64,000 bases of DNA from Saprospiraceae bacterium (GTDB taxonomy: Bacteria > Bacteroidota > Bacteroidia > Chitinophagales > Saprospiraceae), in NCBI GenBank assembly GCA_022844565.1, contig JALHLK010000005.1, positions 114,875 to 178,874 of the forward strand, in the 5' to 3' direction. A program made the translations under genes and the position numbers. Shown piece after piece: positions 23,247 to 53,085 of the stretch (positions are counted from its first letter, which is position 1; each line of letters begins with the position of its first letter). The notes under the pieces are model-generated. The model made no database searches and had not been told where the DNA came from. It saw only the letters and a program-made list of their open reading frames with translations.

Positions 23247-23250
23247 AACA

Positions 23251-24642: not shown

Positions 24643-24697
24643 GATTGGGTTTTCATGGCAAAGTTGGTTTTGATGCGTTAGTAAAATAAAGTTTTAT

Positions 24698-28398: not shown

Positions 28399-30408
28399 TT
28401 ATCTATTTCTAGGGTTATCAATTACTGGAAACTGTGCAATTCGAAGTGTGGTGCATCCATAAGGTATTAATTCTAACTCTTCAACAGGTGTGTATAGTTC
28501 AATATAAGGATGCGATTGTATTGGGATTTTGCCTGTAGAATTCATTGATTTTTCCCAAAATGGAATCTGTCTTCCTTTTATTTTGATTGAAATTGGAGCA
28601 TTTGGAAGATTCCATGGATAATCGGAATAAGAAGCGGAAATATCAACTTTTAAAGAATCTGCATTAATTTGGTTTTCGATGATGCCATAATTCCATTTTG
28701 AAGGAGTAGTTACTTCAAAAAAAGTATCATCAAATTCTTCGGTCTTGACTTCTCTCCAATCTTCTTCTAATTTTAAAGCATAGACTAAAGGCCCTCTTTC
28801 GATTCCTAAGGAATTTTCGTACCACCTTGAAAATGCAATATTCATTGGCAATTGAAGCTCTACTACATCGTTTTCAGACCACTTACGATTCAAAATAAAA
28901 ATCTTTTCCTTATTGTACTTTTGAATTTGTCCGTTTACTTTTATTACAGGATTATTGCACCACTCAGGAATACGAAGGTGAAATGGAAAAGTATTATCAT
29001 TTTTAGTATTGTAAGTAAATTTTATTAAATCCGAAAAAGGGTAATTGGTTTCTTCCGTAAAACTTACCTCTTGCCCATTTGCGACCTTAGCATTTACTTT
29101 AGATGCACCATAAACTAAAGCAGCTAAGCCATTATCGGCTGTTGCGTACCAAAGGTTTTGTACAAACTTTGGAAAACCTTGGTGCATATTGGTCACACAA
29201 CAAGGGTATCCTGTCGTAGTACCAAATACGATCCTCCCTACCCTGTCATTGAAAAAATTTCGGCTTTTATCTGTTATCTCGATTTGATTCACTTGTTGGA
29301 AATATTGCTTTGTTTTATAGTTGTCATCAACTTGGGTTGGCAAGACATTAAATGCTATTTTTTCTAAGTAATCAGCAAAAAAAACATCTCCTGTAATTGG
29401 CAAAATACTTTCAAAAGAATACATAAACTCAACTGCTGAACACAATTCAGAACCTTGTGTTGGGTCATTGCCATGGAGATTTTCGTCGCCACCATACATT
29501 CCATTTACATATCCATGGACATCCTTCAAAGCCATAAGTCCTTCTTTTACAGCATCCATATATTTCGATTCAGGATGTTGTTGGTAATAAATCAAAGGCT
29601 CTTTAATTCCTTGTGCTACATTCACACAGTGAAGTATAGGGAGTGGATTGAGCTTTCTGATGGTGTTATTTGATAGTTTGGTAGTCTAGTCGAAGGTTTG
29701 TTTATGAATGATCTCAGCTAAATCAAGTAGATATTTATCTTTGCAAATGTTGTAATACCAATATACAATCTGAAGGTTATCTCCTCCCCTCTGTTCTGCC
29801 CAATAAGTCCATTTTCCAAGTGGTTTGGTAGGAAGTGTGGCCAATTGATATCTAAAATATTTATCAAAAAAAGAAAGAACCCTTTTATCATTTGTAGCTG
29901 TATAATATTGCTGCATGACTTTAAGCATAACCATTTTTGGCCACCAATCTTCACTCATCGTTTGTTGAGTTCCTTTAATTTTTTTCATTGTTTTTTCATC
30001 AAAAGGAATCGGGCCAAAATAACCATCAGGCCTTTGTTTTGTTAAGCTCCATTCCACCCATTCTTTGGCTTTTGCTATGAGCTTTGGATCATCGAGTATA
30101 TATGCTAAAGGCAACAATCCGTCTATCCAATAAGGACCTCGCTCCCAGCTATCACCTGAGCCCCCAAGCCAACCATTGTTTGGGCCACATACTACAGAAT
30201 ACACACTGTCTAAATGTCCTGTAAGCCCTTCTTTTTGGGTTAAAAGCATTTTTTTTAACCAGCCTTCGGGTTTAATTGAGCCCAAAGGTAGTGGAGTATA
30301 TGGTTGTGCAATTAAAGGCGCTTGATTGGTAATATAATGTTGGTTTCTACTTTGTCCTTGTACCAACAAAGTTGTAATAACCATCAAAAACACATACAAA
30401 TATTTCAT
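28399..30408 (-). pseudogene. GH127-type (DUF1680) glycosidase interrupted by one in-frame stop
   Basis: The track shows two ORFs (30408-29686 and 29625-28399), but both are in the same frame (start-to-start distance 783 bases) and together form one ~670-codon GH127-family gene. A single TAG (29686-29688) interrupts it in 'KQTFD*TTKL'; TGG (Trp) is a likely ancestor. The N-part has a signal peptide and 'GGSGDSWERGPYWIDGLLPL'. The C-part has the catalytic zinc site: Glu-x-Cys in 'GSELC' and the Cys pair in 'YPCCVTN', where the nucleophile is expected. The family removes beta-L-arabinofuranose; some marine members act on 3,6-anhydro-D-galactose. No frameshift is needed, so it may be a recent mutation, a sequence error or a readthrough. 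Confidence 0.85.
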
Positions 30409-30657
30409 TGAATAAAAATTAAAAATTATAACTATAAGTTTATTCTATAATTAAGAATATTCTTTTTAACAATACAATAATAAGTAAAATTTACGTTGAA
30501 AATTAAAAAATGCCCCCTAAGTTTTTATCACTACACCTAACGTACTTTTTAACATACACCTTGTCCTTTCCTTTTTCGTATTCTTTTGACTTTGAAAATG
30601 AGTATTTACACTGTTGATATTTATTTTAACAATAATCGCTTGGCCATCCCCTAGTAG

Positions 30658-32121
30658 TTAATTGCTTTTACCTTTTGGAGCCCCTGCTATTAAATCAAGT
30701 TGATTAAATGTCGCAAAAGCATTTGAATTGTTATTTTTGAGCATGACGTAAATATCGTTTAAGCCATTGGCTCCTCTTATTGCTTGAATGAAATGTCCTT
30801 TTTTAACATTTTTATACGTACCTATTAATTTGCCAGTAGGTGAATTTAGTCTAAATTCTAAATCGCCTACTCCATTTATATTAGATATATTAAACTCTAA
30901 AAAGTAGTAACCAGTGCCTAAATTAATATTTTTGAAAACTAAAGGCTTTCCTGCTTCAATATTTAATGGCGATTCTTTTTTTAGGGAAACGGCATAAGGT
31001 TGATTTATTTTAACACTAGGCACACCTTCTAATGTTTGATTCACAGGAATGATACTTCCATCTTTCGTGTAATCTAACTTGTCAATACATACCGATCTTT
31101 GAGTCCATGTACCCATATTTTTAAACTCATCCTGCCTCCATGATGATAAGGCGGATGTATGGTAAAATAAATAATCTTGACCATGGTATTCTGCAATGCC
31201 TACATGGTTGGATTGCGTAAGACGCCAAGGCACATAACTTTTACCAGGTAGTGCAGGGCCATTGTTGACATTTACACCCAATTCATAATTTACGACACCT
31301 CCGTATGTATAAGGCCCAAGGATGTTGTCAGCATAGGAGTAAGCTATTTCTGATTTGTCTCTATTTGGATCATCGGGATTATCTTTATCAATTTTATTTC
31401 CATATTTCGTATGATAGGATATATAGTACTTGTCATTTTTTTTATGGAGCCAAATTGCCTCCATAAATCGGTCTGTGCCTAGATCTAACTCCTTAGCTTT
31501 AGTCTCCAACTCCATCATATTATCTTTCAATTTTGCTATTTTCTCGTGCCCCCATAGTAGATAAAATGTTCCATCATTGTCTTCAAAAACAGCTGGGTCG
31601 ATGCCTGAAGTTCCTTCTATTTTAGGATTTAGAACTTTAAAGTGTTTATCTGGAGCGTCACTGACCGCTACTCCGATAAAAGAAGTAACAACCCTACCTG
31701 GAGCTCCATTTGTTCTTACCGAATCTGTGTGGTGAATCCAAACAGGATAGTACAAGTAATATTTACCGTCGCGATAAATCATATCCGGTGCCCAAAGTGC
31801 CCAGTCTTGTTTTTGTACAGTACTTGGCATGATGTCATCAATGTTAAAAATTGGCCCGTGATCAACCCAAGTTTTCATATCTGCTGTAGAAAAAGTATGA
31901 TATTTATGCATAGTAGGATAACCGCCCCCTTCATCACTGTCTACCGAAGTGACCATCCACATTCTACCGTCAGGCAATACTCTTGGAGATGCATCTGCGG
32001 TATACATATGGGTTATTACAGGATTGCCATAAGGGTAAGGTTTTACATTTTTATTTGGCTTTTGTGCAATTATTAGTGTTTGAAAGAATAATCCAATAAG
32101 GATGATTTTTAATATTTTCAT
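30658..32121 (-). CDS. GH43-family glycosidase with CBM6-like C-terminus
   Basis: A 487-residue secreted enzyme (signal peptide 'ILIGLFFQTLIIA'). A five-bladed propeller typical of GH43 spans residues about 30-360: candidate base Asp in 'TADASPRV', the pKa-modulating Asp in 'GIDPAVFEDNDGTFYLLWG', and acid Glu in 'FMEAIWL'. The last ~120 residues form a beta-sandwich ('LNIEAGKPLVFKNINLGTGYYFLEF') like CBM6. GH43 enzymes act mostly on alpha-L-arabinofuranosides, beta-xylosides or beta-galactosides; which one cannot be decided. It is divergent from the beta-helix gene, with a 187-base control region between. Confidence 0.88.
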   Translation of the reverse strand: MKILKIILIGLFFQTLIIAQKPNKNVKPYPYGNPVITHMYTADASPRVLPDGRMWMVTSVDSDEGGGYPTMHKYHTFSTADMKTWVDHGPIFNIDDIMPSTVQKQDWALWAPDMIYRDGKYYLYYPVWIHHTDSVRTNGAPGRVVTSFIGVAVSDAPDKHFKVLNPKIEGTSGIDPAVFEDNDGTFYLLWGHEKIAKLKDNMMELETKAKELDLGTDRFMEAIWLHKKNDKYYISYHTKYGNKIDKDNPDDPNRDKSEIAYSYADNILGPYTYGGVVNYELGVNVNNGPALPGKSYVPWRLTQSNHVGIAEYHGQDYLFYHTSALSSWRQDEFKNMGTWTQRSVCIDKLDYTKDGSIIPVNQTLEGVPSVKINQPYAVSLKKESPLNIEAGKPLVFKNINLGTGYYFLEFNISNINGVGDLEFRLNSPTGKLIGTYKNVKKGHFIQAIRGANGLNDIYVMLKNNNSNAFATFNQLDLIAGAPKGKSN

Positions 32122-32146
32122 ACTTTAATTTTATTTTATCTAAGAC

Positions 32147-32162
32147 ATTACTTGCAAGTAAT
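32147..32162. promoter_or_regulatory. 16-bp perfect palindrome, candidate operator
   Basis: ATTACTTGCAAGTAAT is a perfect 16-bp palindrome lying 26 bases upstream of the GH43 start in the divergent control region. Such symmetry is typical of dimeric repressors (LacI, GntR or similar). No such regulator is in the window. Confidence 0.5.
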
Positions 32163-32204
32163 ATATAATACCACAAATGAAATGAAAATTAAGGTAGCAA
32201 AACA

Positions 32205-32236
32205 GCTCTCTTGTACCGATGTTTTGCTCTTAAATT
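32205..32236. promoter_or_regulatory. Direct repeat shared with the susC upstream region
   Basis: GCTCTCTTGT (32205-32214) and TGCTCTTAAAT (32225-32235) are spaced 21 bp start to start. The same two-part motif with the same spacing occurs at 53086-53117 upstream of susC. Candidate site for the AraC-type domain of the hybrid regulator. Confidence 0.5.
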
Positions 32237-32308
32237 TAAAAAATATGACTGACTTGAAAATGCTTTGATCAATGTGTAGTTTTGTAATAAATATTTATAT
32301 TTTTACTT

Positions 32309-34183
32309 ATGAAGAAAAATATTGCCTTGTTAGTTGCTGTATTTATATTTATATCGAAAAATCATGCGCAAAAGATTGATACTTACGAATGGCCTATTGC
32401 TGAAAATGAAGCTATTCTATCTGACAAATACAAAGTATCTATTATTGAAGGTAATGACACGTTAAATTCTATGGTCATCCAATCAAAGTCTAAGGACTTG
32501 GAGATACCTGACTTTGCCAGAGAAATGCGTGGCGGTAGAACTTTTAATTGGACTATGTTTTCTTCAGATTTTAGCAAACCTCTTAAGATTATCGTTGAAA
32601 AAATATTTGGCACTCCCACCAATGATATAGAAATTGTGCCATCCCCATTCAAGATTAATAAAAAAATCCTGAACAATGGTCAAAAAGTTGAAATCATACT
32701 TAATGAACCAAAATATGTATGTATAAACTTTAAATCACAGGACAATATTCATACGAGTGATGGTGTAGTAAAACACATGTTAATGATTTTTGGAGATCCC
32801 TTAGAAACGGATGTACCTGTAAAAAATGATCCAAAAGTTCATGTCTATTCTAAAATATCTACTGTAAAACAAATGGATGATGCAGATATCATATATTTCC
32901 CTAAGGGATACCATGATTTAAAAGTACAATATGACGATGTTAGTAATATGGCAAAGTCTATTAATAAAAGAGGAAAAAAGGTTTACTTTGAAGGTGGAGC
33001 TTATGTACATGGAAGAATTTATAATGCGACGAACGGTAACGTAAAAATATATGGAAGGGGTGTATTATCTGGTAGAGATTTCAAATGGAGTGAGCGATTA
33101 GCACAAAATGGTGGTAAGCCTGGAGTAGATTCATACACAGCGAATAATGCTCATATTGGATTTAGTTCACCTGCTGGATCTAATACAATTGAAGGCATTG
33201 TGGTATGTGATGGTGCTGGTCATGGAGTCAATCTAGGTATTAGTAATAATGTATACCGCAATTTTAAAACTTGGGCATGGCATCCTAACAATGACGGCAT
33301 GCGACCTTGGGGTGTCAATAATACTATCGCAAATTGTTTCGTTCGTGCATGTGATGATGCTATGTACAACAAAGGGCTGACTGTTACAAATACTATCTTT
33401 TGGCAAGGTTTTAATGGATCTATCATTACGACAGGATGGGATGGAGCGTATAATACTGAAAATTCCCTACTTAAGGACAACTACATCATCTATCCCGAAT
33501 GGAGAGGGCTTGGGAATAACAATGGTATCGTCATGTCTCAACAAGATTTTGACATGTCAGGTACCAATGTCGTAATCGAAAATCTTACTGTTGATGGTAA
33601 TGTACCAGCTTTGGTTAATCTTAAAACAAATTCTGGTAAAACTGACTTTGTATTACCAACAGACTTTGGTGGTAAGATTGGAAAAATAGATAATATTCAC
33701 CTTAAAAATGTAGTAGTTACCGGAAATCAAGCAACCTTCAATGGTGATGCTTTTCAACAAACGCCTATACCATCTAAAAATGTGATCAAAGGTGCTATTA
33801 TGAAAAGTGGTGAAATCTTTTTTACGTCCAATGTTAGCTTTACCAATGTTACGATAAATGGAAAATGTATAAGCGATCTTCCTATAAATGATTATTTTAC
33901 GATTGACCCAATGACTACGAAAAATATACAGATAAACAGTTGTGATGTGGTAAGTACTAGCATAAACGAATCAATTGAAGACCAATACACTGTTTTCCCA
34001 AACCCTTCATCGTCAATTTTAAACCTAACAAAACATGCTAAATTATTAGAAATTTTTAATTCAAATGGTCAAAAAGTCATTTCAATAAAGGAGGCAAGTA
34101 GTGTAGATATTTCTGGTTTGAAAAGTGGGTTATATTTTATGATAATTGAAAACTCAAAATCTCTAAGATTTTTAAAATATTGA
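32309..34183 (+). CDS. Secreted right-handed beta-helix glycosidase with T9SS sorting tail
   Basis: A 624-residue enzyme. Signal peptide, then an N-terminal beta domain (residues about 20-190), then a right-handed parallel beta-helix with 'GGAYVHGRIYNATNGNVKIYGRGVLSGRDF'. The candidate catalytic region 'HPNNDGMRPWGVNNT...RACDDAMY' resembles the NTDG and DD aspartates of GH28, but the sequence as a whole is closer to dextranase-like (GH49) helices; the family is not settled. The last ~75 residues ('FPNPSSSILNL...GLYFMIIENSKSLRFLKY') are a type IX secretion C-terminal domain, so it is exported to the cell surface. The only gene in the PUL with this tail that I see. Confidence 0.85.
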   Translation: MKKNIALLVAVFIFISKNHAQKIDTYEWPIAENEAILSDKYKVSIIEGNDTLNSMVIQSKSKDLEIPDFAREMRGGRTFNWTMFSSDFSKPLKIIVEKIFGTPTNDIEIVPSPFKINKKILNNGQKVEIILNEPKYVCINFKSQDNIHTSDGVVKHMLMIFGDPLETDVPVKNDPKVHVYSKISTVKQMDDADIIYFPKGYHDLKVQYDDVSNMAKSINKRGKKVYFEGGAYVHGRIYNATNGNVKIYGRGVLSGRDFKWSERLAQNGGKPGVDSYTANNAHIGFSSPAGSNTIEGIVVCDGAGHGVNLGISNNVYRNFKTWAWHPNNDGMRPWGVNNTIANCFVRACDDAMYNKGLTVTNTIFWQGFNGSIITTGWDGAYNTENSLLKDNYIIYPEWRGLGNNNGIVMSQQDFDMSGTNVVIENLTVDGNVPALVNLKTNSGKTDFVLPTDFGGKIGKIDNIHLKNVVVTGNQATFNGDAFQQTPIPSKNVIKGAIMKSGEIFFTSNVSFTNVTINGKCISDLPINDYFTIDPMTTKNIQINSCDVVSTSINESIEDQYTVFPNPSSSILNLTKHAKLLEIFNSNGQKVISIKEASSVDISGLKSGLYFMIIENSKSLRFLKY

Positions 34184-34243: not shown

Positions 34244-36262
34244 TTACTTCTCCAAATCCATCAACAAAATCCCATACCCAATCCCCGTCACATCATCAAT
34301 TTTAGCATACTGAAATGCTATACGTTTGCCATCCGGACTCACTACAGGATTACTTGCTTTATAATTTTCATTGTCATTAAAATAAGTGAGTCGTTCCATT
34401 TTTCCAGAACCATCAAGTTGAAGACGGTATAAATCGATCAAATTCCAGCTTTTGTAATCTTTGTAAAATGGTCTATGTCTGTTACTTTCTACCAAAGTTG
34501 ATTTACCATCTGGAAAAATGGTTTCGGGTTCATCGTATCGCTCATGGTTTTTGGAATAGCTTACTATTTCACCGCTATTCATATCAAAACCCATCGTCTC
34601 TGACTCGTGCACTATCCTTGGAAAATGGGCATTAAAAATGAGTTCATTGTCATGGGGTGGTCTAAAATCTTGGGGCTCTAGCCTCCAGTTATTAACGGGT
34701 GCGGGCAAATCCTTTTCTGAAAACAGTAATTTTTTGTTTAGCAATTTAGGTATACCATTTTCATAGACAATCTCAGCATAAAACATATTAGGATCCATGA
34801 CCCAAGCTATTTTAAGTGCATGTCTAGATACAGCTATGCCTTCTTTTAGTGTTATGCCAAGTGGTGTTGGCGGAGACTTAAGATCTTTTTTCATTATCCA
34901 AACCTGACAATTTTCTGGTTTACGCGCTTCCCAAGGGTTTTCTTTTTTAAAGAAGTCTGCACCAGTCAGCAAATAATCTCCATTGGACAAATAATGTACC
35001 CTTTGAAAGCCGTAATGGTAAAAATGTTGAGTCAACGGCTTTATCTGTTTTGTTTGTAAATCGATCTCGTAGGCATCGCCAAAAGTTTTGTTCATAAATG
35101 CTACTTTTTTGCCATCAGAAGAGAATGCTGCCCTTTCACCAAAATCTGTAAGTCTAGTAATATTTGCAGGGAGAAAATCAGGGTGATGTAATATCCCTAC
35201 CTGCTCTGTATACCCATCTGGTTTATCATTATACCCAGCAATTTTTGATCGTCTCAGAACCTCATTATGAATCCTGTGTGACCAAGCTACAAATTTTTCT
35301 TCATTAGCTTGCTCTATTTCTGGTGTACTTGTACTATTGCTTGGAATATCATTTAGAGATACCCCCCACTTCCCAAGTAAAACCCAATAGGTGGCTGCAT
35401 CGGAATGATCCACGCTATTTTGTACATATTTGCCGTCTATAAATAACTTGCCTAGCTCGCTAGTTTTAAATTGGTTGTAATAAGCTTCTCCTTTTTGACT
35501 ACCACTCACAATTCCGTGTTGCCCTATGGCACCACATTCAAAATATTGAATTTTTCCTGACTTAGCCATCTCTTTCATGTAAGCACATGCTGAGGCATCC
35601 TCTCTGCAGTTAGCAACATTTTGAGGTGCTTCCATCGTTCCTTGGTGCCAGAAAGAGTTGGTCCAATGAGCGATAAATCTAAGCTTTTTTAGGACTTTAG
35701 TATTTTTAGTGGAAATACAGTGCTTTACTAAGATGGCTGGTTCTGTAGTAGACCCCCAAATAAGCACATTGATAACATCTTTTTCATTCTTAGTTAGGTC
35801 AATTAAATTTTTTACAGTCGTATAATTACTTAAATCTTTGTAATCTTTACCAACATCAAACTTTTCCGAGCTCTCTTTAATACTCGATTGCTGAAAATTA
35901 ATTCCTGATGGGTATCCACCTAAATATTTATTTAAGTTAGCAATATCTTTTTCATATGCTTTTGTAAAATATGATGTAGCCCATTTACCCTGGTCTACAC
36001 TTTCTTTATGTTCTTTTCTATGTGTGCTGGCGACGACGATACCTTTCGTTTCAAATTCATTGCTCATCAATAAATAGCCCGCCATAGCTGAAATATCATC
36101 AGGATCATTGACTGTACCCATATGGTTTTTACCGGGGATACTTTTATCGCTCATGTCGGTATAAATCCATACTTTGGGCTTGGATTGTGCTTGAGAGTAT
36201 TGAGAAGTGAAAAAGAAGAATACTAGAAACGGTAAGAAGATGATGTAATCTGGTTTTTTCAT
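34244..36262 (-). CDS. Nucleoside-hydrolase-like domain fused to a PD40 beta-propeller
   Basis: A 672-residue secreted protein (signal peptide 'IIFLPFLVFFFFTSQYSQA'). Residues about 27-343 form a DUF1593/nucleoside-hydrolase-like domain with the Asp cluster 'NDPDDISAMAGYLLMSNEF' and 'HWTNSFWHQG'. Residues about 360-670 form a TolB/WD40-like propeller ('DFGERAAFSSDGKKVAFMNK', 'NPVVSPDGKRIAFQYAKID'). The N-domain is about 70% identical, by eye, to that of the next gene, while the C-domains are unrelated. It is last in the operon. I know no characterised protein with this architecture. The activity of the N-domain is not established; N-glycosidic or furanosidic hydrolysis is an inference from fold. 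Confidence 0.8.
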   Translation of the reverse strand: MKKPDYIIFLPFLVFFFFTSQYSQAQSKPKVWIYTDMSDKSIPGKNHMGTVNDPDDISAMAGYLLMSNEFETKGIVVASTHRKEHKESVDQGKWATSYFTKAYEKDIANLNKYLGGYPSGINFQQSSIKESSEKFDVGKDYKDLSNYTTVKNLIDLTKNEKDVINVLIWGSTTEPAILVKHCISTKNTKVLKKLRFIAHWTNSFWHQGTMEAPQNVANCREDASACAYMKEMAKSGKIQYFECGAIGQHGIVSGSQKGEAYYNQFKTSELGKLFIDGKYVQNSVDHSDAATYWVLLGKWGVSLNDIPSNSTSTPEIEQANEEKFVAWSHRIHNEVLRRSKIAGYNDKPDGYTEQVGILHHPDFLPANITRLTDFGERAAFSSDGKKVAFMNKTFGDAYEIDLQTKQIKPLTQHFYHYGFQRVHYLSNGDYLLTGADFFKKENPWEARKPENCQVWIMKKDLKSPPTPLGITLKEGIAVSRHALKIAWVMDPNMFYAEIVYENGIPKLLNKKLLFSEKDLPAPVNNWRLEPQDFRPPHDNELIFNAHFPRIVHESETMGFDMNSGEIVSYSKNHERYDEPETIFPDGKSTLVESNRHRPFYKDYKSWNLIDLYRLQLDGSGKMERLTYFNDNENYKASNPVVSPDGKRIAFQYAKIDDVTGIGYGILLMDLEK

Positions 36263-36347
36263 TTTTTTTATTTTAGATAAAATGACTTACAGGGAGCAAA
36301 ATTAATATCATAAACTTTTTTCGAATTTTCCCTTTAGTATCATAATT

Positions 36348-38921
36348 TTATTTCTTTAAATCTTCATAATCAAACCAATCATAGACTGCTTCATTTTGTG
36401 AAGACGTGCCATTGCTGCTTGCATACATACCAATAAAAGGACCTGTAAAACCAAGTGTTTTTTCATCTGAGATTGCTTCCAAAGAAATACCCTCGGCCAA
36501 TGATTCCTTAGACCATTCTTTATCTCCAAACATAAAATTCATCTTACCATCCGCTGCTTTAATAGAAAAGATTACATCACTTTTAGTGTAAGGCTTTTCA
36601 GCAATGACTTCTATGTTTTTGCCTTGTCTTCTGATCAATTTAATGGTGTTTTGCGTTTTTACCATTTGATAGTAGTTGGTGCTTGCTCTGTAAATGGCTA
36701 CGCCTGCCACTTCATTTTGTGATTTTGCATTAAATTCCATTTTTGCTTGCATGAAAAAATCGTGATGGGTAATCCTTCTTATGATCATCGAAGGACTAAC
36801 CAAGCTATCCATGGTTTCTGGCAAAAGTTTCATCTTTAGTTTTCCATCTGCCAAGCTATAGAAGTTATCTTGGGGTGTCCGAGCAAAGTTCCACTGAAGG
36901 CCTAATTTATCTCCTTTAAATTGATCTTTGATATCTGCTAAAGGAACTGGACTCCAAGGTAAGTTAGGCCTTTTTCCATTATTTTCTAACTTGCCTATTC
37001 CCGGATTATAAACAGGTGTTTGCCCTTCAAACGTAACAGGTGTCAAGAAACTTTCTCTACCAAGCAAGGTTTTACCATCATTCTTTCTTTTACCAAGTGC
37101 TACACCCCACCAATCTCCATTTTGTAATTGCACTAAGTCTGAATGCCCTACCGAATGAATAGGATAATCTTGACCAAGGTTGCGATGTGTTAATACAGGA
37201 TTGGAATGATCTGGAATATATGGTCCGAAAATACTATCACTATGAAAGACTGTCACAGCATGATGATATCCTGTGCCTCCTTCAGCTACCAACAACATAT
37301 ATTTGCCATTGATCTTATAAAGATGAGGCCCTTCTGTCCATCTTGCATTTGTAGCATGACCGTGGGTCAACTGTTTTCTAGGTCCAACTAGTTTTTTTGT
37401 ATTTAAGTCCAATTCTTGTATCCATACCCCATTTTTATCAGGCCAATCAGTGATTCTACTGATATTGGCATGTCCTGTATAATAACACTTCCCATCATCA
37501 TCAAAAAACAAAGATGGGTCAATACCTGGAGAATCAAGCCATATAGGATCACTCCAAGGTCCTGCAGGGTTGGTAGCTGTGACATAAAAATTCCCTCCAC
37601 ATGTGACACAAGTGGTAATCAGATAAAAGGTATCCTTATGATGTCTTATAGTTACCGCATAAATCCCTCTTGAATCCTTTAGGCCTTTTGGTATTTTGAC
37701 CTGATCAGGTCTATGTAGTCCGTACCCTATCAAATTCCAATTGACCAAGTCACGACTCTTGTAGACAGGCATACCAGGATAAAATTCAAAACTCGATGTG
37801 ACTAAATAAAAATCATCACCTACCCTACAAATGGATGGATCTGGGTTAAAACCTGATATGATCGGATTTTCAAAATGGTCAGGAGGATAATTTATGGTAA
37901 TATCGCCACCCGCTATTTTTGCTCTTCTAACCAGTTCGTCATGTATTCTATGTGACCAATTGACAAATTTTTCTTCATTCGCTTTCTCTATTTCTGGAGT
38001 ACTTGTACCATTACTTGGTATATCATTTAACGAGACACCCCATTTGCCCATCAAAGCCCAATAAGTGGCTGCATCAGAATGGTCCACACTGTGGTTTACA
38101 AATTTACCATCGACAAAAATTGTTCCTAAAGCGCTAGTCCTAAATTGATTAAAATATGGTTTTCCTTTTTGAGAACCGCTTACAATACCGTGTTGACCGA
38201 TGGCAGCGCATTCATAGTACTGAATGACTCCAGATTTTGCCACCTCTTTCATGTAGGCACAAGCTTTCGCGTCTTCCCTACAATTGGCCACATCATATGG
38301 CTTATCCATACTTCCTTGATGCCAATAGGAATTTGTCCAATGCGCGATAAACTTGAGTTTTTTGAGTGGTTGAGTATTTTTATTACTAATGCAATGTTTG
38401 ACCAAAATAGCTGCCTCAGTCACAGAGCCCCATAATAATACATTTATCACATCTTTTTCTTTCGACGCTAAATCATACAATGCTTTTATGCTAGCGTGGT
38501 TAGCCAAAGACTTGTAATCTTTTGTAGGGTTAAAAGACTCACTTGTACTTTTGATGGATGATTCTATGAAATTCATTTCAGGTTGATATCCACCAATTTT
38601 TTTATTCAAGTTGATGATGTCTTGTTTGTAAGCTGACCCAAAATAAGATGCTGTCCATTGCGCTTGATTAGGACTCGTTTTATGAACATTTCTATGCGTT
38701 GAACTTACCACTATCCCTTTCGTATCAAATTCATTGGCCATCAACAGGTAGCCTGCCATTGCCGAAATATCATCAGGGTCATTGGCTGATCCTTCCTTTT
38801 CGATACCTCGGATATTTTTATCACTCATGTCGGTATATATCCATACTTTAGGTTTGGATTGAGCAAGTGCAAAACTTCCAAAACATAGCAATAAGGTTAT
38901 AGAAAAAATATATTTCATCAT
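36348..38921 (-). CDS. Nucleoside-hydrolase-like domain fused to a GH43 glycosidase
   Basis: An 857-residue secreted protein. Residues 1-20 are a signal peptide; 21-340 a nucleoside-hydrolase-like (DUF1593) domain with 'DPDD' at 48-51; from about 350 a complete GH43 unit: base Asp361 in 'GFNPDPSI', 'GIDPSLFFDDDGKCYY' and the acid Glu in 'TEGPHLYK'. The last ~200 residues are the GH43 beta-sandwich (GH43_C2: 'IIRRITHHDFFMQAKMEF'), as in beta-xylosidase/arabinofuranosidase subfamilies. So the GH43 is full-length and the extra domain is added in front. It overlaps the upstream sulfatase by 4 bases, and its partner fusion lies 85 bases downstream. Confidence 0.88.
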   Translation of the reverse strand: MMKYIFSITLLLCFGSFALAQSKPKVWIYTDMSDKNIRGIEKEGSANDPDDISAMAGYLLMANEFDTKGIVVSSTHRNVHKTSPNQAQWTASYFGSAYKQDIINLNKKIGGYQPEMNFIESSIKSTSESFNPTKDYKSLANHASIKALYDLASKEKDVINVLLWGSVTEAAILVKHCISNKNTQPLKKLKFIAHWTNSYWHQGSMDKPYDVANCREDAKACAYMKEVAKSGVIQYYECAAIGQHGIVSGSQKGKPYFNQFRTSALGTIFVDGKFVNHSVDHSDAATYWALMGKWGVSLNDIPSNGTSTPEIEKANEEKFVNWSHRIHDELVRRAKIAGGDITINYPPDHFENPIISGFNPDPSICRVGDDFYLVTSSFEFYPGMPVYKSRDLVNWNLIGYGLHRPDQVKIPKGLKDSRGIYAVTIRHHKDTFYLITTCVTCGGNFYVTATNPAGPWSDPIWLDSPGIDPSLFFDDDGKCYYTGHANISRITDWPDKNGVWIQELDLNTKKLVGPRKQLTHGHATNARWTEGPHLYKINGKYMLLVAEGGTGYHHAVTVFHSDSIFGPYIPDHSNPVLTHRNLGQDYPIHSVGHSDLVQLQNGDWWGVALGKRKNDGKTLLGRESFLTPVTFEGQTPVYNPGIGKLENNGKRPNLPWSPVPLADIKDQFKGDKLGLQWNFARTPQDNFYSLADGKLKMKLLPETMDSLVSPSMIIRRITHHDFFMQAKMEFNAKSQNEVAGVAIYRASTNYYQMVKTQNTIKLIRRQGKNIEVIAEKPYTKSDVIFSIKAADGKMNFMFGDKEWSKESLAEGISLEAISDEKTLGFTGPFIGMYASSNGTSSQNEAVYDWFDYEDLKK

Positions 38922-40348
38922 TTTTGATTTTTATTTAAATTCGACATTATTGATTTCAACTCTAATTCTAACTTTTGCACCAAATCAGGTCTTGATTTAT
39001 TCATATTAGTTTTTTCTGAGACATCTTCTTTTAAATTGTATAATTCTGGAGTTGGCTTAGTTGTATCAACATTTCTAGCACCCCCATACGGAAGGTATTT
39101 CCAATCTCCTTTTCTTATTCCATGTACTTCTGTGCCTTTTGTATACAATACATAGTCTCTAGGAAGCTTATTTTTACTATTTTCTAAATGAGCAGAAATA
39201 TCAATACCATGAACGTTATTATATTTAGCTCCCGCATAGTTTGCTATGGTAGGGAAGAAATCTACGGAAGATACAATTTCATCACTTACCTTACCGTGAT
39301 CCCATCGCCCAGGCCAACTCATTATACATGGCACTCGTACTCCTCCTTCGTAGTTGGTAAATTTTCCATCGCGCAATGGATCTGCACTTCCAGAATCAGC
39401 CTTATAACCAAGCCATGGACCATTGTCAGAAGTAAAAATGATGATCGTGTTTTTATCTATCTTTTTGTCTTTCAATGCTTGAATTAACGCCCCAGTATAC
39501 CAATCAATCTCCTCAATCACATCACCATATAAACCTCGCTCGCTCTTGTTTTTAAATTTTTCAGAAACAAAAAGTGGAACGTGAGGCATAGCAGGTGTTA
39601 AATAGATGAGGAAAGGCTTATTACTATTTTTTTCAATAAAATTTATTGCCCGATCAAACAATCTTGGGGTTAAAGTGGCCTGATTGCAAGGATATTCGAC
39701 TATCTTATTACCTTCAAATAAAGGCACTAACTCCTTGATGCCGTGATCTACTATTTTTTTTCGTTCATTGTAGTTTTCTTTAATAAATTGTTGGTCTTCT
39801 TTTGCTCGTTCTAGCGTATAACCATTTAAAAAGCGAACCGTATCAGCAAATTTATGCGTAGACCCAATAAACATATCGTTGCTATACGGGATACCAAAAT
39901 TCTCATCAAATCCTTGGTTTTGCGGAAGATAATAATCCAAATCACCTAAGTGCCATTTACCAAAACAAGCTGTCTTATATCCTTCTGTTTTTAATACTTC
40001 TGCGATTGTAATTTGTTCAGGCTCTAATGCTTTTCTATCAGGGAAGATTACATTTCCTACACCATTGCCAAAAGAATATTTACCCGTGAGTAGCGATGCT
40101 CTAGAAGGTGTACAAACCGAGGCACTCACGTAAAAGTTTGTAAACCTAATTCCTTCGGCAGCCAGTTTGTCGATATTAGGAGTCTTTATTTTGGGCGAAC
40201 CATAACATCCTAAATCCTGATATCCTTGATCGTCAGTAAAAATTATGATGACATTTGGTTTGGAAAATGTAGATTTATTTTGGCCTGTTACATTTTGAAA
40301 TGAACAAGAGGACAATACAACCAATAATAAAATTAAAACCTTTTCCAT
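38918..40348 (-). CDS. S1-family sulfatase (arylsulfatase A-like)
   Basis: A 476-residue sulfatase with a signal peptide that may be a lipoprotein signal ('LVVLSSC', Cys15). 'FTDDQGYQDLGCYG' (residues 37-50) supplies the first metal ligands; the formylglycine motif is 'CTPSR' with Cys79; 'GKWHLGD' and 'FTSDNGPWLGYKADSG' are typical later motifs. It resembles the common arylsulfatase A-like group of PULs. It lies in the middle of the minus-strand operon, one base after another sulfatase, and overlaps the downstream fusion protein. Confidence 0.93.
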   Translation of the reverse strand: MEKVLILLLVVLSSCSFQNVTGQNKSTFSKPNVIIIFTDDQGYQDLGCYGSPKIKTPNIDKLAAEGIRFTNFYVSASVCTPSRASLLTGKYSFGNGVGNVIFPDRKALEPEQITIAEVLKTEGYKTACFGKWHLGDLDYYLPQNQGFDENFGIPYSNDMFIGSTHKFADTVRFLNGYTLERAKEDQQFIKENYNERKKIVDHGIKELVPLFEGNKIVEYPCNQATLTPRLFDRAINFIEKNSNKPFLIYLTPAMPHVPLFVSEKFKNKSERGLYGDVIEEIDWYTGALIQALKDKKIDKNTIIIFTSDNGPWLGYKADSGSADPLRDGKFTNYEGGVRVPCIMSWPGRWDHGKVSDEIVSSVDFFPTIANYAGAKYNNVHGIDISAHLENSKNKLPRDYVLYTKGTEVHGIRKGDWKYLPYGGARNVDTTKPTPELYNLKEDVSEKTNMNKSRPDLVQKLELELKSIMSNLNKNQK

Positions 40349-40349
40349 T

Positions 40350-41942
40350 TTATTTACTTTTTTCCCACGGCATCAATTGCATATGATTGGGCCTGAGTGC
40401 TTTTATTTTTTGATTGGTTTCCACAGCCAGTTTTTGTTTTTTCTGAAAATCAGCTTGGCTTTCTCCGGGATTCCAATACCAAGGATGTGGTACGTGAACC
40501 GTTTTAAAATACAATTCAATTTTTTTAACTATCTCAGGGTAAAATGCACTTAGATCTTTGGAGCAGTTCTGATCCTCATCAATCAGAAACAGCTCTAATT
40601 GGTTATTTGGGTGTTCTCGATGAGCAAACCAAGGGCCCATCCTCACAGATTGCTCATTGTTTTTATAGAAGTAAAATGGTCTATCAAATGGAATGTTTGA
40701 TGCCTTGCCTTGGAGGATTGGTAATAGAGAATACCCATCTAAGTTTTTGGGTATTCTTTTGTTAATCATTTGTGCGAATGTCGGAAACAAATCTAAAAGC
40801 CAGACTGGCTGCGTGATGATTTGGGATTGTTTTTGATTGGGCAATTTAATGAAAAAAGGAATGCGCATGCCTGCCTCTCTGACTGAAAATTTACCACCAT
40901 GAAAAGGGCCTTTATTTTCTAACCACTGATCATCCTTCCATACTTGTTGATCATCTTTGGTTCTTATTGGGTTGTGCATAGCATATCCATTATCCGAAGC
41001 AAAAATGATCATCGTGTTGTCATAAATACCTGCACTTTTCAACTCTTGAATAATTTTACCAACCGAGATATCCAATCTTTTGACCATAGCACCCCATTCT
41101 CTTGATCTTAACTCCATATCTTTCCTATCTGTCAAGTCACGTAAATCATCTACGATTTGTGGACCATGTGGTAAATTAGTGGTGTAATACAAGAAAAATG
41201 GTTTGCTTTTATTAGCTTTTATAAAGTCTAGGGCCTCTCTATCAAACTCATCGACTGCATAAACACCATTGTTTTCTGACATGTATTTTAGTTTTCCATT
41301 GCCATCATACATGCTTTCAAAATCAAAGCTTTTAGGATCTCTTTCTTTATCGTACAATACTTCCAGATTGAAAGCACTATTCGAGGGATAATCGACAATT
41401 GCCCCATTTCTGTACAAGTTTAAAGGAAAAAATGAATGGGCTTCATAGTGATCATAATATCCAAAATGATAATCAAATCCTTGCTTTCGTGGATCTCCTA
41501 TGCTGTTGGGGTATCCAAGACCCCATTTTCCTATCACTGCTGTTTTATAGCCGCTTTGTTGCAGCATTTTGGGGAAAGTCACGCTGTTTTCAGGTAATTC
41601 CTCAAAACCTCTTGCGCTTGAATTGATACGTATCGGACTTTTGCCTACATGCAAGCCTGTGAGCATACAACCGCGTGAGGGAGCACACTCAGGTGCGGGT
41701 GCATATGCTTGAGTAAACCGTGTGGATTGACTTGCTATTGCATCTAAATTTGGAGTAGCAAAATTAGTCTGTCCGTAACAACTTAAATCTCGAAAACTGA
41801 GATCATCGGAAAAAATATAGACAATGTTTGGCTTTTGAGCATAAGTCAATTCTGACATTCCAATCCAAGAAATATACGTAAAGAATAACTTGATGAAAGA
41901 TTGTCTTAAATTAACAGATATTTTTTGAGTATTCTTTTCCAT
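40350..41942 (-). CDS. S1-family sulfatase
   Basis: A 530-residue sulfatase with a hydrophobic N-terminal signal ('FIKLFFTYISWIGMSELTYA', cleavage near residue 36). 'FSDDLSFRDLSCYG' gives the first metal ligands, the formylglycine motif is 'CAPSR' (Cys86), and 'GKWGLGYPNS', 'YYTTNLPHGP' and 'FASDNGYAMHN' complete the site. The 'GKWGLG' and 'HGPQ' patterns are shared with the sulfatase at 56472, so the two are probably related in subfamily. It is 36 bases downstream of the GH2 gene. The sulfate position attacked is unknown. Confidence 0.93.
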   Translation of the reverse strand: MEKNTQKISVNLRQSFIKLFFTYISWIGMSELTYAQKPNIVYIFSDDLSFRDLSCYGQTNFATPNLDAIASQSTRFTQAYAPAPECAPSRGCMLTGLHVGKSPIRINSSARGFEELPENSVTFPKMLQQSGYKTAVIGKWGLGYPNSIGDPRKQGFDYHFGYYDHYEAHSFFPLNLYRNGAIVDYPSNSAFNLEVLYDKERDPKSFDFESMYDGNGKLKYMSENNGVYAVDEFDREALDFIKANKSKPFFLYYTTNLPHGPQIVDDLRDLTDRKDMELRSREWGAMVKRLDISVGKIIQELKSAGIYDNTMIIFASDNGYAMHNPIRTKDDQQVWKDDQWLENKGPFHGGKFSVREAGMRIPFFIKLPNQKQSQIITQPVWLLDLFPTFAQMINKRIPKNLDGYSLLPILQGKASNIPFDRPFYFYKNNEQSVRMGPWFAHREHPNNQLELFLIDEDQNCSKDLSAFYPEIVKKIELYFKTVHVPHPWYWNPGESQADFQKKQKLAVETNQKIKALRPNHMQLMPWEKSK

Positions 41943-41978
41943 ATTAAATTTTCATCTTAAATCGCTTGAAATTTCAAA

Positions 41979-43838
41979 TTATTCATTTACTCCCATTACA
42001 GGCTTACCCGTCAACTTGTCTTTTGCCCAAGTTGATTTGTTTGCTTTTGTAACACGTTCTTTATCCAACTTAATCACTTTTCTATCGTAAGTATAAAAAC
42101 CATTCATTTCATTTTCGACATCGGTCCATTGAGTATAAACAGCTCCTGAAAGACCACCCGCTAAAAACTTATCGGTAATCATGCCAATAAACTTTTCATA
42201 TTCTGCCGTAGCGTCATCCTTTCCTTTATAATTGTAATGAACCCAAGGCCCATCATCATCCCAAATATGACCAGGTACCAAATAACCGATAGCTCCGTAT
42301 TCACCATTGACGGTGGCTCTCCGATCACTGACTAAAGGTAAAGACGGTGGTCTATAACTATGATTGTCCTTGATATGCCCCACTTCATAATCGATATTTG
42401 GTCTACCAGCATCGATGCCGCTATTTCCTGTGACCAACCGATGGGGATCCAATTTCATGACATGATTGGTCAGTCGATCCACGTCGTAGATCCCCCAATG
42501 TTCATTAAAAACTATCCAATTGACAATGCTTGGGTGATTCCAGTTTTGGGTGATCATGTGATGCAATTCAGCTTCAAATTGGATTTTTTCTTCTTCATTT
42601 CGTTTTTTAAAGGTATTGGGCATATCTTGCCATACTAAGATTCCCAATTTATCGCACCAATAGTACCACCTTTGCGGCTCTACTTTGATATGTTTGCGAA
42701 TCATGTTAAATCCCCATTCTTTGGTCATTTCTATGTCCCACTTGAGTGCTTCATCAGTTGGGGCAGTATAAATACCATCGGGCCAAAAACCCTGATCCAG
42801 CGGTCCAAATTGAAATAAGAAATGATTATTCAATGCTAAACGTTGTGTTCCTTTTTCATTTTTTAAGGAAATTTTTCGCAGTGCGGCATAGCTCTTCACT
42901 TTATCAAGTTCTTTACCTAAGCTATCCATCAAAATGATCTCCAAATCGTACAAATGTGGATTAGAAGGCGACCAAAGTATAGGATTTGTTATCTTCGTAG
43001 TTACAATATTTTGCGCTAGATCTTCGCTAGATTCGATAGTACCAATTGCGGTTTTTAAATTGACTTTTATTTGAGATTTATTGGGAGCGTTGCCCAAAAA
43101 GGTAGTCTTGACGCTAATACTAGGGTTGTCAATATCAGTCGTGATGTGTAAATCTTTAATAGAAACCTTTGGTACGGGTTCTAACCAAACCGTCTGCCAA
43201 ATGCCTGATGCTGGTGCATAAGCATATCTTTGCGGATCATCAAAGCGAGATCTGTTCTGTTTTCCTACTGCTATCGCTTCTGTATCGGTAGGGTCATAAA
43301 CTTCTACGATGATTTCATTGGTTTTATCAGTTAACAAGTAGTTGGTGACATCAAATGAAAAGCGATCATACCCTCCTTTGTGCTCACCAATACTCCTACC
43401 GTTGATATAAACTATCGCCTTCCAATCTACAGCACCAAAATGCAGAAGGACCTTTTGATTAACCCATGATTTTGGGATGTTAAATGTACGACGATACCAA
43501 GCGGTGTTGGATGCTAATTGGCGATTGATACCTGAAAGTTGTGACTCCCATGGAAAAGGAACCAAGATTTTTTCCTTAAGTTTTCGATTTGTCGGCACTT
43601 TATCACCTACTTTTGCCTCTTCAAATTGCCAATAGCCATTCAGATTCATCCATTGGTCGCGATGCATAATGGGTCTAGGGTATTCTCCGAGTACATTGTT
43701 GGTATCTACCTTGTCAAACCACTGTGTTTTTAAATTCTTTTGTGCACCCAAACTAAGGTTAGTAAGAATAAATACGATCAAGCCAATAAAACTTTTATTT
43801 ACCACCCACATCCTGTTATTTTTTTTGTTTTGCCACAT
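41979..43838 (-). CDS. GH2-family glycosidase
   Basis: A secreted GH2 enzyme of the short (~600-residue) glucuronidase/galactosidase type: an N-terminal sugar-binding sandwich ('PRPIMHRDQWMNLNGYWQFEEA'), an immunoglobulin-like middle and a TIM barrel. The acid/base Glu446 is in 'FNEHWG' and the nucleophile Glu513 in 'NGEYG' (numbered from the track start). The track start overlaps the upstream gene by 40 bases; the internal Met (43811, 'MWVVNKSF') directly before the signal peptide is a better start. Substrate is probably a beta-galactoside or beta-glucuronide; the C-terminal domains of larger beta-galactosidases are absent. Confidence 0.9.
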   Translation of the reverse strand: MWQNKKNNRMWVVNKSFIGLIVFILTNLSLGAQKNLKTQWFDKVDTNNVLGEYPRPIMHRDQWMNLNGYWQFEEAKVGDKVPTNRKLKEKILVPFPWESQLSGINRQLASNTAWYRRTFNIPKSWVNQKVLLHFGAVDWKAIVYINGRSIGEHKGGYDRFSFDVTNYLLTDKTNEIIVEVYDPTDTEAIAVGKQNRSRFDDPQRYAYAPASGIWQTVWLEPVPKVSIKDLHITTDIDNPSISVKTTFLGNAPNKSQIKVNLKTAIGTIESSEDLAQNIVTTKITNPILWSPSNPHLYDLEIILMDSLGKELDKVKSYAALRKISLKNEKGTQRLALNNHFLFQFGPLDQGFWPDGIYTAPTDEALKWDIEMTKEWGFNMIRKHIKVEPQRWYYWCDKLGILVWQDMPNTFKKRNEEEKIQFEAELHHMITQNWNHPSIVNWIVFNEHWGIYDVDRLTNHVMKLDPHRLVTGNSGIDAGRPNIDYEVGHIKDNHSYRPPSLPLVSDRRATVNGEYGAIGYLVPGHIWDDDGPWVHYNYKGKDDATAEYEKFIGMITDKFLAGGLSGAVYTQWTDVENEMNGFYTYDRKVIKLDKERVTKANKSTWAKDKLTGKPVMGVNE

Positions 43839-44929
43839 TGATAAGTGTTGATAATTGCTGAATTATTACAAATAGATAAGTTTAATTTTCCAGGTCCACT
43901 ATGACCTATTGGAGCGGTCATGTGTATATTTTTTGCTTTTACGGATAAAAGTACATCGGGAGATTTAAGTAAGAACAAAGGAAGACTACTATCAGATTTG
44001 AGCAGTAAACTATCAGGATAATTTGCCATTAAACCATCAATCTCAACATTTGTATTCAGACTTCCATTCTTAGTTGAAGCACTAAATAATGCCAAATGTC
44101 TTTTTTTTTCAGGACTAGATATGACTAAGATATTTTTTAGTTTATGATACGATTTATTTGGTTTACTGCCCCAGCCTAACTGAAAAGGTGCACCATTCCC
44201 ATTGTGTATAATGGTTACATTTTCTACAGTGATGTCACGATACAATTTTATAGCATCATCCCAACATTCGAATTTTGAATTTTTGATAATCGAACCTTTC
44301 CCCGCACTTACTCCGTCAGAATTACTTTGAAAATCAGGATATGGCCTATCAAACTTGATGTGTACATTGTTTATATCTACTTTTGCAGAAAATGTTGTAA
44401 TAGCATAAGTACGAGCATTATGTATGGTTAAATTGTTGACTGTTATGACAGCATTAGTGTCTTTTCCCAAATAACTTACCGCTCCATATTGCCACTTATG
44501 ACAGTCATCGACCCTGTCATCACCTTTAGGTCCATCGTTACAAGAACTTTCTGGATGCGCTTTTCCGTCTGGTCCTAAAGCCCAATTTTTGGTAATGGTG
44601 CCATATATGATGGATGTCTGTCGGTTTTTTCCTGAAATGGTTATTGATTTTGAAGCTCTAAAACCACCTTTGATGGTGACATTTGGATTTATAATGATTT
44701 TATCAACTACATTGGGTACTTCCCAATAAAACCCCTCTAAATCATAGTCTTCTTCAGCAGCTACACTAAAGTTTACAGACTTTGAGAAAGTGATGGTTTT
44801 AGACTTTTTATTCCAAGTAATGTGTTCAGCATTTACACCTTTTGGTAATAATAAAGTGTTGAGATCATCAGGACTATTCAATCCAATCAGCAAGCAAAAG
44901 AAAATACCAAAACTCAAAACTATATTCAT
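43799..44929 (-). CDS. Secreted right-handed beta-helix enzyme, GH28-like
   Basis: A 376-residue protein with a signal peptide ('VLSFGIFFCLLIGLNS') and a right-handed parallel beta-helix: 'VTIKGGFRASKSITISGKNRQTSIIYGTI', 'NAVITVNNLTIHNARTYAITTFSAKVDINNVHI'. Candidate catalytic aspartates lie in 'NSDGVSAGKG' and 'CWDDAIKLY', arranged as in GH28 and other beta-helix glycosidases. It could be a polygalacturonase, a carrageenase-type enzyme or a related hydrolase; sequence alone does not decide. It starts one base after the upstream sulfatase ends and overlaps the GH2 gene, so it is translationally coupled to both. Confidence 0.75.
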   Translation of the reverse strand: MNIVLSFGIFFCLLIGLNSPDDLNTLLLPKGVNAEHITWNKKSKTITFSKSVNFSVAAEEDYDLEGFYWEVPNVVDKIIINPNVTIKGGFRASKSITISGKNRQTSIIYGTITKNWALGPDGKAHPESSCNDGPKGDDRVDDCHKWQYGAVSYLGKDTNAVITVNNLTIHNARTYAITTFSAKVDINNVHIKFDRPYPDFQSNSDGVSAGKGSIIKNSKFECWDDAIKLYRDITVENVTIIHNGNGAPFQLGWGSKPNKSYHKLKNILVISSPEKKRHLALFSASTKNGSLNTNVEIDGLMANYPDSLLLKSDSSLPLFLLKSPDVLLSVKAKNIHMTAPIGHSGPGKLNLSICNNSAIINTYQCGKTKKITGCGW

Positions 44930-46363
44930 TTATTTAGGTATGTGTTTTGAAAGATCGTTCATCAAAGTTATATATTTAGAGTCAGATGCCAAATTAGTAA
45001 ATTGGTGTGGATCTTTGTCATTATCATACAATTCTTTACTTCCGTCCATATATTGGATATAATGCCAATTGTCCATAATCACAGCGTGACTACCTTTGGG
45101 ATATGTCACCACTGCGGGAGTTGTCCTTTTTGCTTTTGGGTTTTTTAATACATCGACAAATGATTTACCTTCTAAGTGTGCTGGAATTTTTTCACCTAAT
45201 AACTCGAGGATTGTTGGATATAAATCTAGATAAGAAACCTGAGTCTTCGTAATAGCAGGTTTTTGATTAGGTACAAAAACCATAAAAGGTGCACTTGTAG
45301 CAAGACTCCAAAGGGAGTACTTTTCCCATCTTCGTTTCTCTCCCAACTGAAAACCATGGTCAGACCACAAAACAACGATGGTGTTGTGTTTATATTTACT
45401 ATTTTCAAGACCTTTTAATACTTCACCTACACAAGCATCTGCAAATGACATACTTGCTAAATAGCCTTGTACTGCTGGTAATAACTGTTTCTTTTCTTCC
45501 ACAAAACTTACAAATTTGCTTGCAAAGTTTGTTTGACCAAATTCAGGAATATCTTTCATATCATCAGCTTTCCTTACAGGAGTCTTTAGCTTATCCAAAG
45601 GATAAAGATCAAAATATTCTTTAGGAGCTATAAAAGGTGCATGTGGCCTACTGATCCCGCAAGCCGCAAAAAATGGTTTATCATGTTCTTGCTTTAAATA
45701 ATCCGCAATAAAACCTGCATTTTTCCAATCCCATGACTCCTCTTTCTTTTGATCAGCGTGACCCCATACTTGGGATTTAGTCAAATAGCTAGGACCTTCT
45801 TTCTCTGTGATTTCATCGCTCATAGCGCCTTCTAACCATGCTGCTTGACCGTTTTTATCTAGATACTTTCTATCACCAGTGATGCCTCCATTAGCTTTAT
45901 GCTGTTCATTCCAAGATATTGGGTCTGAAATTGGATTAGCTACAGCTTGCAAGCCTCTGCCAAAGTGAAATAATTTACCTGCACCAACGGTCTCATATCC
46001 CATCTTTTGAAGGTATTGGGGTAAAGTAACTCTTTGTAGCCCACCATCATTGAGTCTGAAATTTCCTTTATTTTCATACTGACCTGTGGTTTCAGGTCGT
46101 TGTCCTGTCCAAATCGCAGTACGAGATGGATTACAGGCAGGAAATACACAATGTGCGTTTGTAAAGTGTGTAGATTTTGAAGCTAGTTTATCAATATTTG
46201 GGGTAATGGCAGGTCCAGCATTATACCCAATCCAATTATTCATGTCATCAATGGCAATAAAAAGGATATTGTACTTTGTCTGTGAATATTCTTTAATATT
46301 TTTTTTCTGACATCCTAAAAGGGAAAAAAACAAAAGAAGGAAACATAAAATTTGCTTTGCCAA
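44930..46363 (-). CDS. S1-family sulfatase, iduronate-2-sulfatase-like lipoprotein
   Basis: A 477-residue sulfatase anchored by a lipobox ('SLLGC', Cys18). 'IAIDDMNNW' (metal site) and the formylglycine motif 'CNPSR' (Cys77) are clear, with 'WSDHGFQLGEKRRWEKYSLW' at the C-terminal side. The 'DDMNxW' and 'GEKxxWEK' patterns match the lipoprotein sulfatase at 23251, so these are a paralogous pair (S1_7-like, inferred). It is the first gene of a six-to-seven gene operon. The upstream 120 bases contain a palindromic TTTAAG-ag-CTTAAA and the terminator of the susCD operon. Confidence 0.93.
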   Translation of the reverse strand: MAKQILCFLLLFFSLLGCQKKNIKEYSQTKYNILFIAIDDMNNWIGYNAGPAITPNIDKLASKSTHFTNAHCVFPACNPSRTAIWTGQRPETTGQYENKGNFRLNDGGLQRVTLPQYLQKMGYETVGAGKLFHFGRGLQAVANPISDPISWNEQHKANGGITGDRKYLDKNGQAAWLEGAMSDEITEKEGPSYLTKSQVWGHADQKKEESWDWKNAGFIADYLKQEHDKPFFAACGISRPHAPFIAPKEYFDLYPLDKLKTPVRKADDMKDIPEFGQTNFASKFVSFVEEKKQLLPAVQGYLASMSFADACVGEVLKGLENSKYKHNTIVVLWSDHGFQLGEKRRWEKYSLWSLATSAPFMVFVPNQKPAITKTQVSYLDLYPTILELLGEKIPAHLEGKSFVDVLKNPKAKRTTPAVVTYPKGSHAVIMDNWHYIQYMDGSKELYDNDKDPHQFTNLASDSKYITLMNDLSKHIPK

Positions 46364-49812: not shown

Positions 49813-49841
49813 TTTATTAAAATTTTTATCTATCAAATTAA

Positions 49842-53018: not shown

Positions 53019-53085
53019 TTTAATTAACGATTTGATAATACAATAATAGTACTGCAAAACAAATACTTATTCCCTAAGGTAGGTT

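Follow-up and report, generated by a model that had tools for sequence, protein, structure and literature searches.

The window analysed here is a 64,000-base stretch of a Saprospiraceae genome (contig JALHLK010000005.1). It includes two adjacent minus-strand genes, separated by 85 bases, that encode proteins sharing an N-terminal domain (N-domain) but carrying different C-terminal parts. Protein 1 (672 aa, 34244..36262) consists of a signal peptide, an N-domain assigned to a subfamily of PF07632 and a PD40 propeller, and protein 2 (857 aa, 36348..38921) consists of a signal peptide, an N-domain, a GH43 domain and a GH43_C2 domain. Both open reading frames are intact. The locus in which they lie contains three sulfatases, a GH2, a GH43-CBM6, an interrupted GH127, SusC/D homologues and a hybrid regulator. 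A minus-strand run at 38918..46363 comprises two sulfatase genes, a GH2 gene, a gene whose product has no Pfam match and a third sulfatase gene; beyond it lie the SusD and SusC genes of this locus (47704..53057, minus strand). On the other side, 28399..34183 is occupied by the GH127 and GH43-CBM6 genes (both minus strand) and a plus-strand gene for a protein with a Por secretion tail.

Several features of this neighbourhood were recorded separately. One in-frame TAG, at 29686-29688, interrupts the GH127 gene (28399-30408, minus strand), which predicts a beta-L-arabinofuranosidase-type enzyme; the two halves are in the same frame and match consecutive parts of PF07944/PF20736. The products of 32309-34183 (plus strand, the Por secretion tail protein) and 43799-44929 (minus strand) have no catalytic Pfam match, and both recur in related loci, where they were grouped as clusters c2 and c16. 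A second gene set upstream (21375-27973, plus strand) encodes a DUF5060/Collagen_bind_2 protein, a sulfatase, a kelch protein, a sugar-kinase-like protein (SBD_N/NBD_C) and a GFO/IDH/MocA dehydrogenase, and possibly represents a downstream sugar pathway.

The N-domains span residues 28-343 of protein 1 (35234..36181, minus strand) and residues 23-339 of protein 2 (37905..38855, minus strand). The first-pass annotation, made from the sequence without database searches, had estimated their identity at about 70%, and the mature domains were found to be 72% identical over about 316-318 residues. At the DNA level the identity is 71%, over 961 bases, and, with the signal peptides and linker included, the proteins are 65% identical over 372 residues (BLASTP, E 6e-170). 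The last motif common to the two is KIAG, which ends at 35234 and 37908, and the junctions had been placed correctly near 35233 and 37904. Beyond KIAG, similarity between the C-terminal parts is not above chance by BLASTP and the Pfam assignments differ, as had been proposed. Both proteins begin with an apparent Sec signal peptide that lacks a lipobox cysteine and, judging from this feature of the sequence, are probably exported.

A Pfam search of both proteins, which had been suggested at the outset, identified PF07632 (Sde182_NH-like) in each, PD40 in protein 1, and GH43 with GH43_C2 in protein 2. The PF07632 matches (E 1.7e-13 and 3.7e-12; 51.2 and 46.8 bits) exceed the curated cut-off of 26.8 bits, with the alignment covering only positions ~10-153 of the 268 in the profile. 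The N-domain is therefore not an unknown module but a subfamily of PF07632 (Sde182), a known Pfam family with a solved relative, 2yhg (Sde_0182 of Saccharophagus degradans). Profile comparison with canonical Sde182 proteins gave a probability of 97%. An AlphaFold2 model of the protein 2 N-domain, built from 20 natural relatives (pLDDT 84.6, pTM 0.88), has a nucleoside-hydrolase fold, although residues 223-229 and 252-256, near the presumed pocket, are below 50 pLDDT. Foldseek ranked 2yhg first (TM 0.64 by query length), followed by a long run of nucleoside hydrolases. The structure prediction, which had also been suggested, thus agrees with Pfam and with the conserved Asp cluster described below in supporting the original nucleoside-hydrolase-like reading.

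However, the N-domain is only ~16% identical to 2yhg. Members of the subfamily carry an insert of ~13 residues between the first Asp and NDPDD relative to canonical Sde182 proteins, and they, proteins 1 and 2 included, lack Sde0182_C (PF21027), which is present in the canonical members at loci L103, L104 and L106. As Sde0182_C is typical of canonical members but lies outside the PF07632 model, its absence marks a subfamily and does not exclude membership of the family. Fusion to PD40 or GH43 further sets proteins 1 and 2 apart from Sde_0182. The predicted fold is shared with nucleoside hydrolases (PF01156; RihA/B/C and the trypanosomal IAG-NH), and the Asp cluster is putatively similar, but identities are 10-15%, there is no significant sequence or profile match and the context is not one of nucleotide salvage. 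Pfam profile searches found no PF01156 match in the N-domains or in the whole genome, and a direct profile link to Escherichia coli RihA/B/C was not significant (hhalign probability 2.6%), so that the tie to nucleoside hydrolases is made through the Sde182 bridge and the predicted fold only.

Six residues, D9, D28, D29, W142, H222 and D261 in domain numbering, are invariant in an alignment of 20 of 20 subfamily members and 4 of 4 canonical Sde182 proteins, and within the N-domain this Asp/His/Trp set spans three phyla. In Sde182 their counterparts are the first Asp, both residues of the DD pair, the Trp, the histidine of GHG/QHG and the C-terminal Asp. Adding 22 gives the putative active-site residues of protein 2 (D31, D50, D51, W164, H244 and D283), and adding 27 those of protein 1 (D36, D55, D56, W169, H249 and D288). 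The Asp positions are presumably the counterparts of the cluster that binds Ca2+ in nucleoside hydrolases.

The C-terminal parts are as first described, a complete GH43 with its accessory sandwich in one protein and a PD40-type propeller in the other. In protein 2 (36351..37904, minus strand), the matches to GH43 (1.2e-81) and GH43_C2 (1e-42) are accompanied by an intact triad, D361, D468 and E530. The closest solved chain is 5joz, the alpha-L-arabinofuranosidase BoGH43B (E 8e-108), and beta-xylosidases are also near. This part resembles GH43-GH43_C2 enzymes such as BoGH43A/B and beta-xylosidases over its full length, but protein 2 differs from BoGH43A/B in having an additional PF07632 domain at the N-terminus. 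In protein 1 (residues 344-672; 34247..35233, minus strand), a PD40 repeat scores 26.2 bits against a cut-off of 20.9, and the AlphaFold2 model (pLDDT 87) is TolB-like. Although the repeat and predicted fold are those of PD40/TolB-type propellers, this domain forms a distinct subfamily linked to PF07632 genes, and structure comparison found no close solved relative.

When 85,462 species genomes were scanned, at least 22 relatives of the N-domain were recovered, 55-76% identical to it and belonging to Bacteroidota, Verrucomicrobiota and one member of the Planctomycetota. More probably exist, because the search was based on two peptide patterns. The subfamily is rare, and among 298 Saprospiraceae genomes the only other strong match was in the genome of uncultured Lewinella locus L022. 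The N-domain might have proved to be a module that is always fused in this way, but it is mostly stand-alone, as a protein of 335-403 aa with a leader sequence in 14 genomes of the scan, with two such copies in Flavobacterium flevense. Each fusion was also found in an unrelated genome (L016, L017), and artefacts of assembly, a possibility raised by the first-pass annotation, are ruled out for this reason. The fusion to PD40 is present in Arundinibacter roseus, where the PD40 part is 81% identical, and the fusion to GH43-GH43_C2 in a Pseudarcicella metagenome-assembled genome (MAG), where the GH43 part is 80% identical.

Homologues of both partners are also encoded separately near the N-domain. 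Seven genomes (L018, L020, L025, L026, L029, L031 and L032) have, within the stand-alone N-domain locus or close to it, a stand-alone GH43 that is 59-62% identical to the fused one from end to end, and close stand-alone PD40 genes neighbour the N-domain gene in L019, L024 and L025. In F. flevense, the N-domain, PD40 and GH43 are three separate genes within 9 kb. A divergent N-domain gene in an Opitutaceae genome (L105) stops 71 bp before a PD40 gene, and one or two genes lie between a PD40 gene and a canonical Sde182 gene (PF07632 with Sde0182_C) at L103:5441-8823, L104:1173-7420 and L106:6199-11037. Since canonical Sde182 genes also lie near the same PD40 subfamily, the association between PF07632 and PD40 is wider than the subfamily in which the fusions occur. 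For all nine PD40 proteins at 459 bits or above, a PF07632 domain is either part of the same protein or encoded within ~4 kb, while five distant relatives (328 bits or less; L099-L102 and L107) have no PF07632 neighbour in the stretches read. Of 19 genomes with the N-domain, 7 have a PD40 of this kind, against 4 with a full-length match among 395 sampled Bacteroidota (Fisher p 4e-8), a comparison that is phylogenetically unbalanced and biased because genomes with the N-domain come from several phyla and are rich in utilization loci; the adjacency of the genes is independent of this figure.

As the fusions recur and stand-alone PD40 and GH43 homologues are often encoded near the N-domain, the architecture is a Rosetta-stone fusion, in which components that cooperate in a sulfatase-rich utilization locus have been joined, rather than a random swap. 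The modular swap first proposed holds in that one module has been joined to two partners, but the joining is neither arbitrary nor unique, as the parts are as a rule encoded separately within a single locus and each fusion has a counterpart in another genome. The N-domain and its two fusion partners very probably cooperate, and probably on a single sulfated polysaccharide of plants or algae.

When the window is counted, 23 loci were compared, and sulfatase-cluster genes are present in 17 of them; some loci also contain alpha-galactosidase-type and 3-keto-disaccharide hydrolase genes. The gene content of the window and of related loci suggests that the substrate is a sulfated glycan containing arabinofuranose- and galactose-type residues. 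With its sulfatases and GH43/GH2-type enzymes, the window locus resembles PUL13 of Bacteroides plebeius, which acts on sulfated arabinogalactan (PMC8406133). The N-domain gene of Phocaeicola plebeius is ~40 kb from a Ser-76 sulfatase gene resembling BACPLE00986 (PMC8406133), a gap that suggests neighbourhood and not membership of PUL13. PF06439 (3-keto-disaccharide hydrolase) domains were seen near three loci (L016:13400-15331, L025:3105-4898 and L103:6978-7766), in one case joined to GH43 and in another to a kelch propeller, and a 3-keto cleavage route may work on the same glycan.

PF07632 is present in many polysaccharide-degrading bacteria, but the family was not found to be named as PF07632/DUF1593, or given a glycan function, in the literature searched. 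To our knowledge, an activity has been established for none of its members, and we know of no test on O-glycosides. There is about an even chance that the N-domain is a metal-dependent hydrolase of the furanosidase type and a working part of the degradation of sulfated furanose-containing glycans. A hydrolase is favoured because most copies stand alone, as a module for targeting only would have no need to do, and because the residues resembling a pocket do not vary among three phyla. Offered more tentatively, and at somewhat short of even, is the fuller proposal that it represents an uncharacterised family of O-glycoside hydrolases with a nucleoside-hydrolase fold, a metal-dependent exo-furanosidase that regularly works alongside a specific GH43 and a possibly enzymatic PD40 propeller. 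The N-domain would normally be a separate periplasmic or extracellular protein encoded near the GH43 and PD40 propeller, and its fusion here, once to each, would keep consecutive steps on one oligosaccharide together. In protein 2, the Asp cluster formed by D31, D50, D51 and D283 could bind a divalent metal, which would grip a terminal furanose by its vicinal hydroxyls. With water activated by one Asp and H244 as the acid, the furanosidic bond would be split. The GH43 might then take off the following arabinofuranose- or xylose-type residue, while the propeller of protein 1 would bind, or itself act on, the same chain.

The same conserved metal site might instead serve to present the glycan to the GH43 or propeller, the N-domain being a non-catalytic, CBM-like furanose-binding module. 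This is a serious rival, though the less probable, because the review PMC8910321, citing Hehemann et al. 2011, reports that the NH domain of Sde_0182 is inactive on purine and pyrimidine nucleosides. The same review gives the hypothesis that this domain is a furanose-interacting module, and describes proteins with the nucleoside-hydrolase fold that hold a ligand at the equivalent site and have no nucleosidase activity. Attachment to a catalytic GH43 is typical of binding modules. However, most copies of the N-domain are separate proteins of ~340 aa with nothing to target, and the invariant Asp quartet, His and Trp exceed the needs of binding.

On another reading, the N-domain is a true N-ribohydrolase that salvages nucleosides or similar compounds, and its position in a utilization locus is incidental. 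This would suit the match of the modelled fold to nucleoside hydrolases and the failure to find another recognisable IU nucleoside hydrolase in the genome. It is nevertheless improbable, given the inactivity on nucleosides reported for the relative Sde_0182, the consistent position of N-domain genes among sulfatase, GH43, GH2 and SusC/D genes, and the glycan-degradation or propeller type of both fusion partners. Least probable of all is a recent local duplication followed by accidental, functionally meaningless joining to unrelated neighbours, since, although the paralogues are adjacent and the tree neither pairs N-domains by partner nor resolves their history, both architectures occur in other genera, the partners neighbour stand-alone N-domains in other genomes, and the four complete fused N-domains group in a single clade (100/98) from which stand-alone members are absent. 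The arrangement is a real and conserved modular one in a known but uncharacterised family.

The fusions and recurrent neighbours name working partners for PF07632, which narrows the assay and makes the function testable. The assay pointed to is one of the N-domain with its GH43 and PD40 on sulfated glycans bearing arabinofuranose or galactofuranose. Should the N-domain hydrolyse O-glycosides, glycan breakdown would have recruited a fold known for nucleoside salvage, and genome annotations that label the domain 'cellulose-binding' would need correction.

Within the fused clade, N-domains are not sorted by partner, but trees in which they are paired by partner were not rejected (p-AU 0.10 and 0.21). 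Because the fused N-domains form one clade unsorted by partner, the phylogeny indicates that one fused lineage has carried two partners, through either two fusions or an exchange of the C-terminal part.

Two other arrangements were seen among the relatives. A Planctomycetaceae protein (L023:2130-4403) has ~430 residues of another domain ahead of a C-terminal N-domain, a third architecture in which the order is reversed. In an Opitutaceae MAG (L035:957-2263), a frame-disrupted N-domain gene directly follows a canonical Sde182 gene.
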